Positions 3,869 through 13,654 of a DNA stretch of 64,000 nt are shown in pieces. Within the stretch, counting starts at the first letter, position 1. Each line of letters opens with the position of its first letter. The DNA is from Methanoculleus sediminis. Lineage in GTDB: Archaea; Halobacteriota; Methanomicrobia; Methanomicrobiales; Methanoculleaceae. Made by a program: the position numbers and the translations under genes. Under the pieces are notes generated by a model. It had not been told where the DNA came from. It did not search any database and worked only from the letters and a program-made list of their open reading frames with translations. The DNA lies in NCBI RefSeq assembly GCF_001017125.1, contig NZ_JXOJ01000002.1:745017-809016 (forward strand), written 5' to 3'.

Positions 3869-4180
3869 TCAGCAGAACCGGCAGCCGCTACCGCAGGCCG
3901 CGTCCCTGATCCTGCGGAGGGCGGCAGCCGCCCACCTTGCGACACCCGGATCGGCGTCCTCGAGCGCCTGCACGAGCGCCGGGATAGCTCCCGCATCCCC
4001 GATCATCCCCAGGGTGTAGGCCGCCCACATCCTGAGGCGGGGATCGGGATCGTCGAGCGCACAAAGAAGCGGCGGAAGCGCAGCCGGACCGAGGGCGGCG
4101 AGTTCCGCCGCCGCTGCCAACCGATCTGCGGTCTCACCGCCGCGAAGAGTCCGGATCAGCGCCCCGGGACCCGCCGTCAC
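3869..4180 (-). CDS. Small HEAT-repeat protein
   Basis: A 103-residue protein made almost wholly of two to three HEAT/PBS-lyase-type helical repeats, seen as LAALGPAALPPLLCALDDPD, then DPRLRMWAAYTLGMIGDAGA, then DPGVARWAAAALRRI. It ends in a short Cys-rich tail (CGSGCRFC). Its start overlaps the stop of the STAS gene (ATGA at 4177-4180), so the two are probably translationally coupled. HEAT proteins act as protein-binding scaffolds. Here the partner may be the STAS protein or its regulator, which is inference from the overlap only. The terminal Cys cluster is unusual and could bind metal. Confidence 0.75.
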   Translation of the reverse strand: MTAGPGALIRTLRGGETADRLAAAAELAALGPAALPPLLCALDDPDPRLRMWAAYTLGMIGDAGAIPALVQALEDADPGVARWAAAALRRIRDAACGSGCRFC

Positions 4181-4539
4181 GGAGACGTTCTCTCCTCTTT
4201 CTCCCCGTCACCCGAGGCCAGGATCTCGTCCAATCCCACGTAGATCGGGAAGACCTCATGGACACCCGCCATCAGGAAGACCTTGTAAACGTCGGGCTGA
4301 ACCGCGCAGAGTGCCATCTCTCCGTCCACCCGCCTTAGATCACGGAACTTGCCGAGCAGCACCCTTAGACCGCTGCTGCTCATGTAGGCGGCCTTCTCCA
4401 GGTTCACGAGCACCCGTTTTCCGCCCCGCGCCAGCACTCCGGTGATTGCCGTATCCAGGCTTTCTGCCGATTCCGCATCGATTCTGCCGTCAACGGATAC
4501 GACTGCCGTATCGTCTCGCTCACTGACCGTTACGTCCAT
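4177..4539 (-). CDS. STAS-domain anti-anti-sigma-like protein (RsbV/SpoIIAA type)
   Basis: A 120-residue STAS protein. The conserved helix start MSSSGLRVLL (residues 53-62) carries the serine cluster that RsbW-type kinases phosphorylate in bacterial homologues. The frame is open far upstream, but the ATG ending at 4539 (MDVTVSERDD) gives the normal family length, so I chose it. It is followed with a 4-bp overlap by a HEAT-repeat gene. A second STAS gene with kinase and phosphatase neighbours lies at 10629. This one has no kinase beside it and may be served by that RsbW, which is inference. Confidence 0.85.
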   Translation of the reverse strand: MDVTVSERDDTAVVSVDGRIDAESAESLDTAITGVLARGGKRVLVNLEKAAYMSSSGLRVLLGKFRDLRRVDGEMALCAVQPDVYKVFLMAGVHEVFPIYVGLDEILASGDGEKEERTSP

Positions 4540-4625
4540 GGTTGTTTTTCGGTGCGGGAGGAGAAAAATCGTCCGTTTCTCAACGGGGCGCATGCAGCGC
4601 TTGCGCAACGCTTCCGCTTTTCTTG

Positions 4626-8467: not shown

Positions 8468-10144
8468 CTACTCCGCAAGCTCCTCGCCGGAACTCACCAT
8501 CGCCACCACGTTGCCGTCCGCGTCCCGTAGAAGGGCGTTGTGCCAGAGTATCGGCCGTTCCTGCCCGTCCCGCGTGACGACCGGACTCTCCTCGAACGGC
8601 GGAGGCTCGACGCCGCAGGCCACGAGACGGTTGAAGTTCTGCGCGAGTCGGTCGCGCAGCCGCCCGGGCACGACCGTCTCAAACCAGTTCTTCCCTGCAA
8701 GATCTCCCTCGGGGTATCCCAGGATCTCGCTCGCCTTCCGGTTGACGAGGTCGATGGTGCCGTCCGCCCCGATCACCGCGATCATCACGCCCGCCGCCTC
8801 AAGGTAGCCCTGCGCCCGGTCGCGCTCGGCGATCAGGAGAACCTCCGCGGCGGCGCGATCGGTGACGTCCTCGGCGAACCCGAGCATGTACTTCAGCATG
8901 CCCCTTGAACTGAAGATCGGGATCTTCTTCATGGAGATGGTTCGCCCGCCCGGGGTCCGGATCTCCTTCTCAAGGGCGGCCGCCCGCTCCACGAGTTCCC
9001 GGTCGCCGTCGGCGAAGAAGGCCGCCATCTCCGGCGGGAAGATCTCCGCGGCCCGTTTTCCCGCCATCTCCTCCTGCGTCATCCCGAGGAACGTCTCGGC
9101 GGCCTTGTTCGAGAAGACGAACGTGTTCTCTTCCACTTCCCGAACAAAGACCATGCTCGGGATGTTGTTGACCACGGAGTAGAGGAACGACTTCCACTGG
9201 GCCACCCGTTTTGCGGCACGCGCCCGTTCGGTGACGTCGCGGCAGACCATCCGGTAGCCGGTGAAGTCACCGATCACGTCGTAGACCGGCGTCCCGCTCG
9301 CCTCGAGAACGACGGGGCTCCCGTCCCGGTGGAGCATCGTCCATTCGAAGAGAACCCGCGGTCTCGGTTCTGCTAAAAGAGAGGAAAACTGCTCCCTGAC
9401 CGGTTCTGCCTTCTCCGGGGGCATGAAGTCGCAGGGGGTCTTTCGAAGCATCTCCTCGGGTGCGTAACCGAGAATCTCCCGGCTTTTGGGGCTGACGTAG
9501 GTGAACACGCAGGCTTCGTCGACGTTCAGGATCAGGTCGCTGATATTCTCGACGAGGCTTCTAAAGAGGAGCTCGCTCTCGCGCAGGGCCTCTTCCGCCC
9601 GCCGCCCCTCGGTAATGTCCTCGAGGATGATGGTGACCCCCGGCGCCCCGTCGTTGAAGACGGTGGGGAGGAACTTGATCCTGAAGAAGAGTTCCTCGTC
9701 CTGCCGCAGGAACCGAAGTTCTTCGGTGACCTCGCGGCCGTTCAGGGCGTCGGTGATCCGGCTCCGTATCAGCGGGTGGTCGAACGCGGCGAGCGGCGAC
9801 GTCTCGATGGAGTTCCCGATGATATCGTCTCGCTCCCTCCCCACAAACGAACAGACAGCGTCGTTTGCCTGGACGATCCGGCGATCCCGGTCGAGCACCA
9901 GCACGAGATCCGACGAGAAGTTGAGCATGGCGGCGATGGGGACCCTCTGCGAGAGGTAGAAGACCTTGGCCTTCCCGTAGGTCTCCATCTCCACCTGGCC
10001 CGATACCAGGAGGACGTCGAGGTACCGGGAGACGGTGTTCCGGTTGATCCCGACGGCTGCGGCAAGATCGGAGACCGACATGCCGCGCGGATGCTCTTTC
10101 AGGGCCCGGAGCAGGAGAGAGAGTGCGTCGGTAGTGGGATCCAT
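8468..10144 (-). CDS. HTH-PAS one-component regulator with several PAS domains
   Basis: A 558-residue cytoplasmic regulator. A winged-helix DNA-binding segment at about residues 20-65 (MSVSDLAAAVGINRNTVSRY) is followed by four PAS domains at roughly 75-190, 195-310, 320-425 and 440-555. There is no histidine kinase domain and no membrane segment. HTH plus PAS proteins of this form are frequent in Methanomicrobiales and are taken to sense small molecules or redox state and act directly on DNA. I used the ATG ending at 10144; a TTG six bases upstream is less likely. The gene at 20558 has the same amino-terminal layout. The target genes are unknown. Confidence 0.85.
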   Translation of the reverse strand: MDPTTDALSLLLRALKEHPRGMSVSDLAAAVGINRNTVSRYLDVLLVSGQVEMETYGKAKVFYLSQRVPIAAMLNFSSDLVLVLDRDRRIVQANDAVCSFVGRERDDIIGNSIETSPLAAFDHPLIRSRITDALNGREVTEELRFLRQDEELFFRIKFLPTVFNDGAPGVTIILEDITEGRRAEEALRESELLFRSLVENISDLILNVDEACVFTYVSPKSREILGYAPEEMLRKTPCDFMPPEKAEPVREQFSSLLAEPRPRVLFEWTMLHRDGSPVVLEASGTPVYDVIGDFTGYRMVCRDVTERARAAKRVAQWKSFLYSVVNNIPSMVFVREVEENTFVFSNKAAETFLGMTQEEMAGKRAAEIFPPEMAAFFADGDRELVERAAALEKEIRTPGGRTISMKKIPIFSSRGMLKYMLGFAEDVTDRAAAEVLLIAERDRAQGYLEAAGVMIAVIGADGTIDLVNRKASEILGYPEGDLAGKNWFETVVPGRLRDRLAQNFNRLVACGVEPPPFEESPVVTRDGQERPILWHNALLRDADGNVVAMVSSGEELAE

Positions 10145-10628
10145 GTGCAAACAGTGTTTCGTGCCGGGAGATATAGGGTTTTGCAGTGCTGCATGCTATG
10201 ACGCTACACACAACGCCACACCACAATGCAAGGCAATGACCGAAAACGATATATGCCACCCGGATCAACTCATGATCCCCAGAGTCGAGAGACGGGGAAT
10301 CTCTCCGACAACCCGGACCGCACAGGCACGGCGGGCCGGGCCGGCGCAGAAACGGCTGGGACCGGTGAACACAACATTCACCACGCTGACTGCATCAACG
10401 TCACGATGCACCGGAAGAGACCCGGTGTACACAGGCACACCTCTCTAAACACTCATACCGGCACGGTGGACGCGGCGCCGGGGCGGGCGGCACAACCGCC
10501 CCGGAACCCGCCGCAGACACCGCATGGTTATCACACACCCTACAATACCTCTTTTTTTGCTCTCTCCCTCTAGGACGTCCGAAAACAGAGAGCAACATCT
10601 ATCTTCCATCAGAACAAAAATTCATGAA
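10145..10628. other. Intergenic region with a GC hairpin and no supported gene
   Basis: A 484-bp spacer between the leftward HTH-PAS gene and the rightward STAS gene. The HTH-PAS end has a TATA-like CCTATATCTC on the minus strand. A strong hairpin lies at 10478-10504 (CCGGGGCGG / CCGCCCCGG, 9-bp loop). The reading frames here have low-complexity composition and no recognisable domain. No tRNA fold was seen. Confidence 0.5.
10478..10504. repeat. GC-rich inverted repeat (hairpin)
   Basis: Perfect 9-bp arms CCGGGGCGG and CCGCCCCGG enclose a 9-bp loop. It lies in the intergenic region about 125 bp before the STAS gene and is not followed by a T-run, so it is not an obvious terminator. Confidence 0.5.
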
Positions 10629-10985
10629 ATGAGCGGGCACTTCGAGATCACCGAGAAAAAAGCCGGCACCGTCGATATCATCACGGTGAAAGGGCGGCTG
10701 GACGCAGGCTCTTCGGAGACGGCACAGGAGCGGATCAACAGGGTGCTCGACGCCGGAGGGAGGAACCTCCTCGTCAACCTCTGCGACCTCGACTATATCA
10801 GCAGTTCCGGGCTCCGGGTGCTGCTTGCCACGCTGAAGCGGCTGAAGGCCGACGGCGGGACGTTCCGGATCGCCTGCGCACAGCCGCAGATCCTCGAAGT
10901 CTTCACCATGGCGGGATTCCACCGGATCTTTTCGCTCTCTCCCGACGAGGCAACTGCGCTTGCCGGATTTCCGGCGGGACCCTGA
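10629..10985 (+). CDS. STAS-domain antagonist protein (RsbV-like)
   Basis: A 118-residue STAS domain protein, the antagonist member of a partner-switching set. The phosphorylation-loop segment YISSSGLRVLL (about 56-66) is present, with the serine cluster used by RsbW-type kinases. The ATG at 10629 gives the normal family length. It is followed within 30 bp by a membrane SpoIIE-type phosphatase and then an RsbW-type ATPase, all on the same strand. In bacteria an unphosphorylated STAS protein sequesters the kinase away from its target, but no sigma factor is expected here. About 39 of its residues match the STAS protein at 4177 by eye, so the two are paralogues. Confidence 0.88.
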   Translation: MSGHFEITEKKAGTVDIITVKGRLDAGSSETAQERINRVLDAGGRNLLVNLCDLDYISSSGLRVLLATLKRLKADGGTFRIACAQPQILEVFTMAGFHRIFSLSPDEATALAGFPAGP

Positions 10986-11010
10986 GCGGCACCACGGGCG
11001 GTAGACCGGC

Positions 11011-12378
11011 ATGGCGTTCTCCGGCTTCGGCGACATGTTCTTCGTGCTCCTGCAGATGATCTGCGTCATCATCGTGGTCGCCTACCTGATCACGCGGACG
11101 AAGTCGTTTACGCAGGTGCTCGACGGCATATTCTCCTGGAAGGGGCAGGCGACCCTCGTCCTCCTCTTTGGGGCGCTCTCCATCTACGGCACCGAGAGCG
11201 GGATCACCATCCTCGGTGCCACGGCAAACGTCCGCGACCTCGGCCCGATGGTCGGCGGGCTCGCCTGCGGCCCGGTGGTGGGACTCGGCGCCGGGCTGAT
11301 CGGCGCGGCGTACCGCTTCTCCCTCGGGGGGTTCACCGCCGTCCCGTGCGCGACCGCGACCATCCTCGCGGGGCTCTTCGGGGGGCTGATCTTCCTCCTT
11401 GCCGGGCGTAAATTCATCGGGATGCACGGCGCAGTCCTCTTCGCCGTCTGTATGGAGGCATTCCACATGGGGATCACCCTCCTCCTCTGCCGGCCGTTCG
11501 ATCAGGCGCTCGGGGTCGTCGAGGGGGTGGCCGTCCCGATGATCATCGCCAACGCCACCGGTGTCTTCATCTTCGCGTTCATCATCGGGAACCTGGTCGC
11601 CGAGCGGCAGACGAAGGAGGAGCGGGATACCTTCCTCTCTGAACTCGAACGCAAGAAGGCCGAACTGAAGATCGCGCACGACATCCAGATGAGTTTCCTC
11701 CCCGAACGGCTGCCGGAAGTTCCGGGCTTCGAACTCGCCGCCCTCTCGCTCCCGGCAAAGGAGGTCGGCGGGGACTTCTACGACGCCATCCCCCTTCCCG
11801 GCGGCCGGACGGCGCTCGTCATAGCCGACGTCTCGGGAAAAGGCGTCCCGGCAGCGCTTTTCATGGCGCTCTCGCGGACGGTGTTGCGGGCGAACTCGCT
11901 GGTTCCCCGGAGCGCCCGCGACGCCGTCGGCGAGGCCAACATGCTGATAGCCGAGGACGCGAAGTCCGGGATGTTCGTCACCCTCTTCTACGCGGTCGCC
12001 GACCCGGCGAACAAGACGATCACCTACGTCAACGCGGGGCACAACCCGCCGCTCCTCTTCCGGGCGGGCGGCGGGCGGCCCACGGGGCTGAAAGGAACCG
12101 GGATCATCCTCGGGGTCATGCCGGAGGCCGAGTACGGCGAGGAGACGATCCATCTTGCGAGCGGGGACCTCGTCCTCTTCTACACCGACGGCGTCACCGA
12201 GGCGATCAACCCCGGCGAGGAGCAGTTCGGGGAGGCGCGGCTGATCGAGACCGTCGCGGGCTCCCTTGACCGGCCTCCGGCCGAGATCGTCGAGAGGATC
12301 CGCGACGCGGTTATGGCGTTCTCGGGCGACGAGCCGCAGTTCGACGACCTGACCCTCATGATTCTCCGGGTGGTCTGA
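11011..12378 (+). CDS. 5TM-LYT sensor fused to SpoIIE/RsbU-type PP2C phosphatase
   Basis: A 455-residue membrane phosphatase. Residues 1-195 form a hydrophobic region of about five to six helices, with a segment resembling the 5TMR-LYT sensor (VRDLGPMVGGLACGPVVGL, GLIGAAYRFSLGG). After the linker helix with AHDIQMSFLP (222-231) comes a PP2C domain of SpoIIE type, with metal-binding acidic motifs EVGGDFYD (251-258), IADVSGKG (271-278) and FYTDGVTEA near the end. The expected role is dephosphorylation of the STAS protein in response to a membrane signal. It overlaps the following RsbW-type gene by one base (TGATG), so translation is coupled. Confidence 0.9.
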   Translation: MAFSGFGDMFFVLLQMICVIIVVAYLITRTKSFTQVLDGIFSWKGQATLVLLFGALSIYGTESGITILGATANVRDLGPMVGGLACGPVVGLGAGLIGAAYRFSLGGFTAVPCATATILAGLFGGLIFLLAGRKFIGMHGAVLFAVCMEAFHMGITLLLCRPFDQALGVVEGVAVPMIIANATGVFIFAFIIGNLVAERQTKEERDTFLSELERKKAELKIAHDIQMSFLPERLPEVPGFELAALSLPAKEVGGDFYDAIPLPGGRTALVIADVSGKGVPAALFMALSRTVLRANSLVPRSARDAVGEANMLIAEDAKSGMFVTLFYAVADPANKTITYVNAGHNPPLLFRAGGGRPTGLKGTGIILGVMPEAEYGEETIHLASGDLVLFYTDGVTEAINPGEEQFGEARLIETVAGSLDRPPAEIVERIRDAVMAFSGDEPQFDDLTLMILRVV

Positions 12379-12788
12379 TGGCGGAACTCACCGTGCGGGC
12401 GGAACTCCCGGCGCTCGCGGCGATCGCCGACTTCCTCGCGGAGACGCTCGCCGGGTGCGGCGACGAACTCGTCTTTGCAATCCAGCTCGCCGTCGACGAG
12501 GCCTGCAGCAACACCATCCTCTACGGATACCCCGGCGGGGAGGCCGGGACGATCACGATCGCCTGCACGGTGGACGACGACACCGTCCGCGTGACGATCA
12601 CCGACAACGGCGTTCCCTTCGACCCGCTCACCGCCCCGGTGCCGTCTCTCGACGTTCCCGCGGAAGAGCGGCCGATCGGGGGGCTCGGCGTCCACTTCAT
12701 CCGGACGGTGACGGACAGTGTGACCTATGCCCGCGAAGGTGAGAGGAACGTCCTCTCGATGGAGAAGAAGCGGCCGGCGTCACCCTGA
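12378..12788 (+). CDS. RsbW-type anti-sigma serine kinase (HATPase_c_2)
   Basis: A 136-residue GHKL ATPase of the RsbW/SpoIIAB family. It shows the N-box DEACSN (40-45), the G1 motif TDNG (75-78) with GVPFDP after it, and the G2 motif GGLGVHF (101-107). It is the third gene of the STAS-phosphatase-kinase run and overlaps the phosphatase by one base. In bacteria this kinase phosphorylates the STAS protein and otherwise binds a sigma factor. Since archaea lack those, its client here must be something else, perhaps an enzyme or transcription factor. It converges on the next gene with a 9-bp overlap. Confidence 0.88.
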   Translation: MAELTVRAELPALAAIADFLAETLAGCGDELVFAIQLAVDEACSNTILYGYPGGEAGTITIACTVDDDTVRVTITDNGVPFDPLTAPVPSLDVPAEERPIGGLGVHFIRTVTDSVTYAREGERNVLSMEKKRPASP

Positions 12789-13619
12789 CGCCGGAAGCGG
12801 CGACCCGAGCGCACGGGGGAGGTCTTCTTTTCTCGTGACCACCCTGGCGGACTCTTCGAGCATCAGGTTGACCCGCTCGTGGTGGCCGACGACCCGGAAG
12901 TCGGTGCGGAGCGCGACGACCTTCTTGCCAAGAGCATGCGCGTACCCCATCTCCCACGAGGTTCCCGAATCGGCGTCCGCGCCGTCGATGACGGCGACGA
13001 CGGTATCGACGTCGCGGAGCGCCGCGGTGTGCTGCGCAAAGATGTCCCGGTGCTCCTCCCGGCACCGGGTGTGGCTCGTGTCTCCCACCTCCTGGGGGAG
13101 GTAGACGTCGAAGAGGTGCGCTTCGAGGAGTTCCCGGAGCGCGAGGTTGTAGGTCTGCTCCGCCTCCGAGAAGAGCGGGGCGGCGAGGTAGACCCGGTAG
13201 CGGGCGAACTCCTTCACGTCGATCGCCGGGATCTCCAGGAACCGGGCGAGAAACGCTCCGCGCCCGGGCTGTTTCTCCGACGAGTAGTAGGTGGCGTTCA
13301 CCCCGCAGGTCGGGGAGGAATCCACCCCGACGATGGCGAGCGGCGGCTCCCCGCGATCCCGTATCACGGCACGGATCTCCGCCTCGAGCCGGTCGAGGAG
13401 GGCGGCAAACTCGTCGGTCGCGAGCCGCTCTACGAACGAGCCCGGGGAGCGGTCGGCGCCGAGGTAGATCGTCTCCGGGCAGGGGAGCGGGACCATCTCG
13501 ATCGAGAAGCGCCGGCACCGCTCCATCGCCCGACGGAAATAGCGCAGGTCCTCATCGGTCGTTATCCCGCGGGCGCGGCGCGCAGGATTCTGTATGCAGG
13601 GAGCGACGAGCACGTACAT
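12780..13619 (-). CDS. TudS-like (DUF523) domain fused to nucleoside 2-deoxyribosyltransferase-like domain
   Basis: A 279-residue two-domain protein. Residues 1-135 resemble the DUF523/TudS thiouracil desulfurase family: an early Cys in VLVAPCIQN (C8), a middle Cys (C47, LPCPET) and the signature SSPTCGVN (C105), three cysteines placed as for a cluster-binding site. Residues 142-265 resemble nucleoside 2-deoxyribosyltransferases, with YLAAPLFSEAE and DSGTSWEMGYA, where the glutamate is the expected nucleophile. I used the ATG ending at 13619, because the frame further upstream lacks family sequence. The fusion suggests salvage or repair of thiolated or otherwise modified bases. The gene is divergent from tsr3, with only 35 bp between the starts. 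Confidence 0.75.
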   Translation of the reverse strand: MYVLVAPCIQNPARRARGITTDEDLRYFRRAMERCRRFSIEMVPLPCPETIYLGADRSPGSFVERLATDEFAALLDRLEAEIRAVIRDRGEPPLAIVGVDSSPTCGVNATYYSSEKQPGRGAFLARFLEIPAIDVKEFARYRVYLAAPLFSEAEQTYNLALRELLEAHLFDVYLPQEVGDTSHTRCREEHRDIFAQHTAALRDVDTVVAVIDGADADSGTSWEMGYAHALGKKVVALRTDFRVVGHHERVNLMLEESARVVTRKEDLPRALGSPLPASG

Positions 13620-13654
13620 TGATAGTACCTGGACGGCGTACCATAACAAGACAG

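Follow-up and report, generated by a model that had tools for sequence, protein, structure and literature searches.

A probable sigma-factor-free RsbW partner switch in Methanoculleus sediminis and its candidate protein partners

The window considered here is a stretch of 64,000 nucleotides of Methanoculleus sediminis DNA (assembly GCF_001017125.1, contig NZ_JXOJ01000002.1, positions 745,017 to 809,016). It carries three consecutive genes on the same strand, encoding a STAS protein (STAS-A), a membrane sensor fused to a SpoIIE-type phosphatase, and an RsbW-like kinase (Table 1). The STAS-A and SpoIIE frames are separated by 25 bp, and the SpoIIE and RsbW frames overlap in the sequence TGATG; together with the profile matches obtained for all three products, this bears out an earlier note on this DNA, which had described the trio as adjacent and coupled. 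Gene starts were set at the longest frames, so that an overlap of some tens of bases is to be read as approximate. A second RsbV-like gene, STAS-B, lies about 5 kb away within the window and was overlooked in that note, and a gene for a metallo-beta-lactamase (MBL)-fold protein sits just beyond the left edge. The 3' end of the RsbW gene overlaps by 9 bp with a convergent gene whose product has a TudS-like N-terminal and a nucleoside 2-deoxyribosyltransferase C-terminal domain.

Table 1. Genes of the trio, its candidate partners and neighbouring genes considered in the text (window positions unless a contig is named)
Feature	Position	Strand	Assignment and remarks
STAS-A, RsbV/SpoIIAA-like, 118 aa	10629..10985	+	PF01740 (E=6e-21), TIGR00377; putative phospho-acceptor Ser59 in YISSSGLR
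5TM-5TMR_LYT sensor and SpoIIE/PPM phosphatase fusion, 455 aa	11011..12378	+	PF07694 (6e-41), PF07228 (8e-54)
RsbW/SpoIIAB-like kinase, 136 aa	12378..12788	+	PF13581, HATPase_c_2 (2e-29)
STAS-B, second RsbV-like protein	4177..4542	-	PF01740 (8e-20)
MBL-fold protein, ~550-590 aa	contig C8, 742213-743856, ~1.2 kb left of the window		PF00753; RsbW-neighbour family
STAS-X paralogue, 441 aa	contig C14, 82131-83456		directly before the second SpoIIE (Cache-HAMP-type)
HEAT-repeat protein, small	3869-4180	-	overlaps the end of STAS-B
PAS-HTH protein	8468-10150		adjacent to the trio
TudS-like/nucleoside 2-deoxyribosyltransferase protein	12780-13649	-	convergent with RsbW

The catalytic motifs that had been read from the letters of the DNA (IADVSGKG, DEACSN, DNG and GGLG) are all present, and the catalytic residues behind them are invariant throughout the order. 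In the trio loci collected from genomes of the order, RsbW residues E41, N45, D76, G102 and G104 are each conserved in 41/41 sequences, the metal-binding residues D255, D258, D273, D393 and D446 of SpoIIE in 32/32, and S59 of the STAS protein in 38/38, the last coinciding in the alignment with the phosphorylated Ser of SpoIIAA (DSSG). The kinase is a HATPase_c_2 protein with the N-box Glu/Asn, the G1 Asp and the G2 Gly of the RsbW/SpoIIAB family; STAS-A combines the STAS fold with a Ser at the phospho-acceptor position, as in SpoIIAA/RsbV antagonists; and the phosphatase combines a PF07228 match with the metal-binding Asp residues of the RsbU/SpoIIE PPM phosphatases. Among PDB structures, STAS-A matches SpoIIAA and RsbW matches SpoIIAB (1til aligned). 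Judged by its sequence, the kinase is the only RsbW-type protein of the genome; the other HATPase_c_2 matches score at most 34 bits and lie in long, histidine-kinase-like open frames (at least 424 aa). The genome encodes two SpoIIE phosphatases, the second of which, on contig C14, has HAMP and a weak Cache match, and three clear STAS proteins, namely STAS-A, STAS-B and the 441-aa STAS-X-type protein on C14.

The same trio (Memar_2467-2469) was described in 2009 from the three genomes then known; the absence of sigma factors was pointed out, the target was left undetermined, and the set was stated not to be found outside the order (Anderson et al., PLoS One 4:e5797, PMC2686161). The earlier note therefore restates an old question, and the value of the present analysis lies in what it adds on the output: the trio itself is not new, and the candidate outputs are the new part. 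The premise that this archaeon has an intact partner-switching core and no sigma factor holds, since a search of the 99.97% complete genome for Sigma70 region 2 (PF04542) returned no match even at E<=1; the sigma client that would make the kinase an anti-sigma factor is not there. The proposed search for the set and its conserved neighbours in Methanomicrobiales was carried out. RsbW was found in 141/232 genomes of the order, usually as a single copy, a prevalence that places the trio far beyond chance; it occurs in 29/40 genera of the order. It also extends beyond the order for which the set was described in 2009, into two further families of the phylum. The families that adjoin it are the STAS-X and MBL proteins, which, together with STAS-B, are added here as dependent partners.

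The MBL protein, the next conserved RsbW-neighbour family after STAS-X, shares with MBL hydrolases of the glyoxalase II or lactonase type the PF00753 match and the seven metal ligands (HxHxDH, H, D, H), which are kept in 18/18 sequences, and differs from them in a conserved C-terminal module (~290 aa, no Pfam match) and in its tie to RsbW. With a profile (A4) built from the RsbW neighbours and searched genome-wide, so that homologues weaker than the E-value cut are left out of the counts, MBL was detected in 116/232 genomes of the order, 111/116 of which have RsbW (p=1e-30, phylogeny ignored). In a sample of 391 phylum genomes that are at least 90% complete, all 64 MBL-positive genomes carry RsbW (p=2e-54, phylogeny ignored), and seven of these belong to a family that lies beyond the order and seldom has RsbW. 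Where both genes are on one contig, they are within 5 kb of each other in 58/83 genomes and within 25 kb in 77/83; in the genome studied here they are 13.5 kb apart and do not form one operon. The MBL gene is most often paired with a STAS gene, and at several loci its frame is consecutive with a small STAS gene, overlapping the STAS end on the same strand. A resemblance between the C-terminal module and degenerate GHKL domains is suggestive only, the similarity not being significant. A search of open-access full text returned no prior report of MBL with RsbW in archaea. In another genus, an MBL-type C-terminal module ends a 1167-aa membrane protein with 5TMR_LYT domains (L194:2875-6378); this protein is the sole link to a transporter as output, one of the three kinds of output guessed in the earlier note, and the transporter finds no support in the genome studied here.

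STAS-X proteins (typically ~430 aa) consist of a STAS domain and ~310 aa without a Pfam match. They adjoin RsbW in 14 of the first 40 RsbW loci fetched, lie within 5 kb of it in 40 genomes, and are present in 101/232 genomes of the order, of which 95/101 have RsbW (p=5e-22). An independent scan of GTDB genomes located STAS-X only in Methanomicrobiales and Verrucomicrobia, chiefly Chthoniobacterales; several Chthoniobacterales loci have genes for a Cache-HAMP histidine kinase and a receiver followed by SpoIIE, RsbW and STAS-X, these three overlapping slightly. The phospho-Ser position is conserved in 47/47 STAS-X sequences, and H376, H378 and H411 in 46/47, 44/47 and 47/47, respectively; from this conservation, the three histidines could be metal holders. 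The STAS-X paralogue on contig C14 lacks the HxH pair corresponding to H376 and H378.

In AlphaFold (AF2) models (pLDDT 87 for whole STAS-X; pLDDT 91 and pTM 0.90 for the C-terminal domain alone), the C-terminal domain is predicted to have the fold of alpha-acetolactate decarboxylase (ALDC). Both models match ALDC and human PTD012 first in Foldseek (E 1e-10 to 1e-6, TM ~0.4-0.7 by normalisation), the top matches being 1xv2 (E=1.3e-10), 1xcr (5.4e-8), 5yho (9.9e-8) and 4bt2 (1.4e-7). Compared with the ALDC/PTD012/PPC fold, the domain has extra elements, a TM of ~0.5 to the query and no match to PF03306. Homology to ALDC at the sequence level was rejected as not significant by hhalign, so that the likeness is one of fold; H376, H378 and H411 may correspond to the ALDC zinc site, although hhalign does not align them to its ligands. 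A PHROGs search of STAS-X gave no match, and no earlier report of STAS with acetolactate decarboxylase was found in open-access full text. It is curious, given this fold, that six genomes of genus g12 (G012, G013, G014, G015, G018 and G019) have a genuine acetolactate decarboxylase gene (PF03306) at ~1 kb or less from RsbW. STAS-X is also found fused to TCAD9, an aminoglycoside-phosphotransferase-like, kinase-like domain (L157:6195-8552, L167:7679-10147, L168:6437-8845 and L195:1255-3690), the fusion at L195 being next to a trio; an eLife article dealing with ternary-complex conflict systems does not name TCAD9 in its main text and mentions STAS a few times, with no link between the two (PMC7159879).

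Natural deletions within the genus bear on these dependencies. RsbW is lacking in 11 genomes of the genus and reduced to a fragment in two more, and six of these 13 genomes retain the surrounding region, including the genes for the dicarboxylate transporter, HEAT, OB-repeat, DUF2207, LemA, PAS-HTH, TudS-like and TSR3 proteins, at ~72-97% identity. In those six genomes three separate pieces are gone: the trio, STAS-B at a distance of ~5 kb and, at ~14 kb, the MBL gene; where a contig ends before the MBL site, the absence of MBL rests on the genome-wide search. Remnants persist in three of the six: G050 retains 46 aa of MBL and 42 aa of RsbW, G066 the C-terminal ends of both SpoIIE and RsbW, and G057 a 20-aa piece of STAS-B. 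Because the intervening genes are intact, a single deletion cannot account for the joint loss. The RsbW-negative genomes are scattered on a genus tree built from seven syntenic genes, requiring seven changes by Fitch and eight losses by Dollo parsimony, which implies seven to eight independent losses in the genus.

Across the 28 genomes of this tree, MBL is present exactly where RsbW is intact (28/28). STAS-B is found at 71-93% identity in most of the RsbW-positive genus genomes assayed, and among RsbW-negative genomes with the region preserved it is either missing or a remnant; since G048 has RsbW and MBL and no close STAS-B match, STAS-B is not strictly required. No RsbW-negative genome of the genus has the unlinked STAS-X either, and at least four with intact RsbW are without any STAS-X (G048, G051, G052 and G072), which marks it as an optional client. 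The HEAT-repeat gene that overlaps STAS-B was rejected as a component because genomes that lost STAS-B and the trio still have it, and its coupling to STAS-B is probably incidental.

Taken together, it is likely (we put the probability at about 0.62) that the trio is a partner switch without a sigma factor and with dedicated proteins instead of transcription factors as its outputs, the MBL protein being the main partner and STAS-X a further client. An enzyme had been among the guessed outputs, and this is the guess that gains support: MBL is a candidate effector enzyme, tied to the switch by linkage, phyletic profile and co-loss, and so is STAS-X. RsbW would phosphorylate STAS-A at Ser59 and STAS-B at the equivalent Ser. 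Once the 5TM domain senses its signal, the SpoIIE phosphatase would become active and remove the STAS phosphate, and the free STAS protein may then leave or engage RsbW, changing the activity of its other partner. This other partner, perhaps in direct contact with STAS, would be the MBL-fold metallo-hydrolase, most likely the main one in this lineage, and STAS-X would act as an additional client with a built-in STAS domain in many relatives, represented here by the HxH-less C14 paralogue only. Among the RsbW-positive genomes of the order, 30 are without MBL, 46 without STAS-X and 21 without both; these last indicate that the core is able to function with different partners and that other outputs exist. 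A more detailed version, which we offer tentatively and as somewhat short of an even chance, is that unphosphorylated STAS binds the C-terminal module of MBL and sets its hydrolase activity, giving a second-messenger-like or metabolic output without a transcription factor, and that the STAS-ALDC-like protein is an interchangeable client shared by archaea and Verrucomicrobia.

The co-occurrence itself fits MBL as output or as input, and MBL could act upstream. The main rival to the reading above is accordingly that MBL works on the input side, making or destroying the small-molecule signal of the SpoIIE 5TM sensor, while the true output is STAS-X or an unlinked factor. Co-loss and linkage would look the same under this arrangement, and it would be in keeping with the 1167-aa protein, where 5TMR_LYT membrane domains and the MBL C-terminal module are combined; however, the usual pairing of MBL is with a STAS gene, the output-carrying element of known systems, and MBL persists beside phosphatases with other sensors, such as Cache-HAMP (L067) and CHASE4-PAS (L201). 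We regard an input role as clearly the less probable of the two.

It is also conceivable, though unlikely, that the principal output of this genome is the C14 STAS-X paralogue with its own Cache-HAMP-type SpoIIE, MBL being a minor branch. The dependence of STAS-X on RsbW and its position beside RsbW in many genomes and in Verrucomicrobia are consistent with this, as is the conservation of the C14 STAS-X/SpoIIE pair elsewhere (e.g., L151, L154 and L166). On the other hand, every RsbW-intact genome of the genus tree has MBL, whereas STAS-X is dispensable in the genus, and the HxH pair that typical STAS-X proteins conserve is missing from the C14 copy.

In bacteria, the clients of RsbW and SpoIIAB are sigma factors; by analogy, the archaeal kinase might bind a general transcription factor, be it TFB, TBP or a subunit of RNA polymerase, in place of sigma, with the adjacent helix-turn-helix PAS gene as a conceivable hint. 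However, genomes of the genus hold at most one TFB gene, RsbW-positive and RsbW-negative alike, leaving no alternative TFB to switch; a transcription-factor output is thus unlikely, TFB was rejected as the switchable output, and this part of the earlier guess is disfavoured. Moreover, no TFB was seen among the conserved RsbW neighbours inspected, and the PAS-HTH gene was rejected as a component, being kept in 33/35 genus genomes irrespective of RsbW. Such a client is improbable, more so than the C14 paralogue as principal output. That the trio is a transferred relic without real output, as repeated loss inside one genus might suggest, is scarcely credible against its strictly conserved catalytic residues, its spread over most genera of the order and the specific partners lost along with it.

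The favoured reading, a switch acting on dedicated proteins, can be set beside systems already characterized. With the Bacillus SpoIIAA-SpoIIAB-SpoIIE-sigmaF and RsbV-RsbW-RsbU-sigmaB systems, the trio has in common the kinase, the STAS antagonist, the PPM phosphatase and the catalytic residues, whereas the archaeal genome is without a sigma factor. The nearest working analogy is SiaABCD of Pseudomonas aeruginosa, in which SiaC binds and activates the diguanylate cyclase SiaD (PMC8457831, PMC7647112). There, as may be the case in these archaea, a small phosphorylatable partner controls an enzyme as the output, and the effector gene belongs to the same operon; the effector is a diguanylate cyclase in Pseudomonas, and the candidate here is an MBL-fold or a STAS-fused ALDC-like protein. 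SiaABC is, in addition, a threonine phosphorylation pathway (PMC8457831, PMC7647112), which differs from the trio. For trios that have been without a known target since 2009, the present results provide a short list of dedicated partners (MBL, STAS-B and STAS-X) backed by repeated natural deletion. If the reading is true, the partner-switching core would be a general device for protein control, portable across domains with non-transcriptional outputs.

RsbW-type domains also occur in other architectures in the order. In three genomes, apart from the trio, such a domain is fused to a GNAT acetyltransferase in proteins of ~500 aa (L055:9195-10652, L066:5646-7127 and L074:8197-9726). In genus g13 (L052:9256-11664 and L053:9190-11565), RsbW forms the C-terminus of a protein of ~800 aa whose N-terminal part is Cthe_2159 carbohydrate-binding-like, and the fusion gene has a STAS gene and a different SpoIIE as neighbours.
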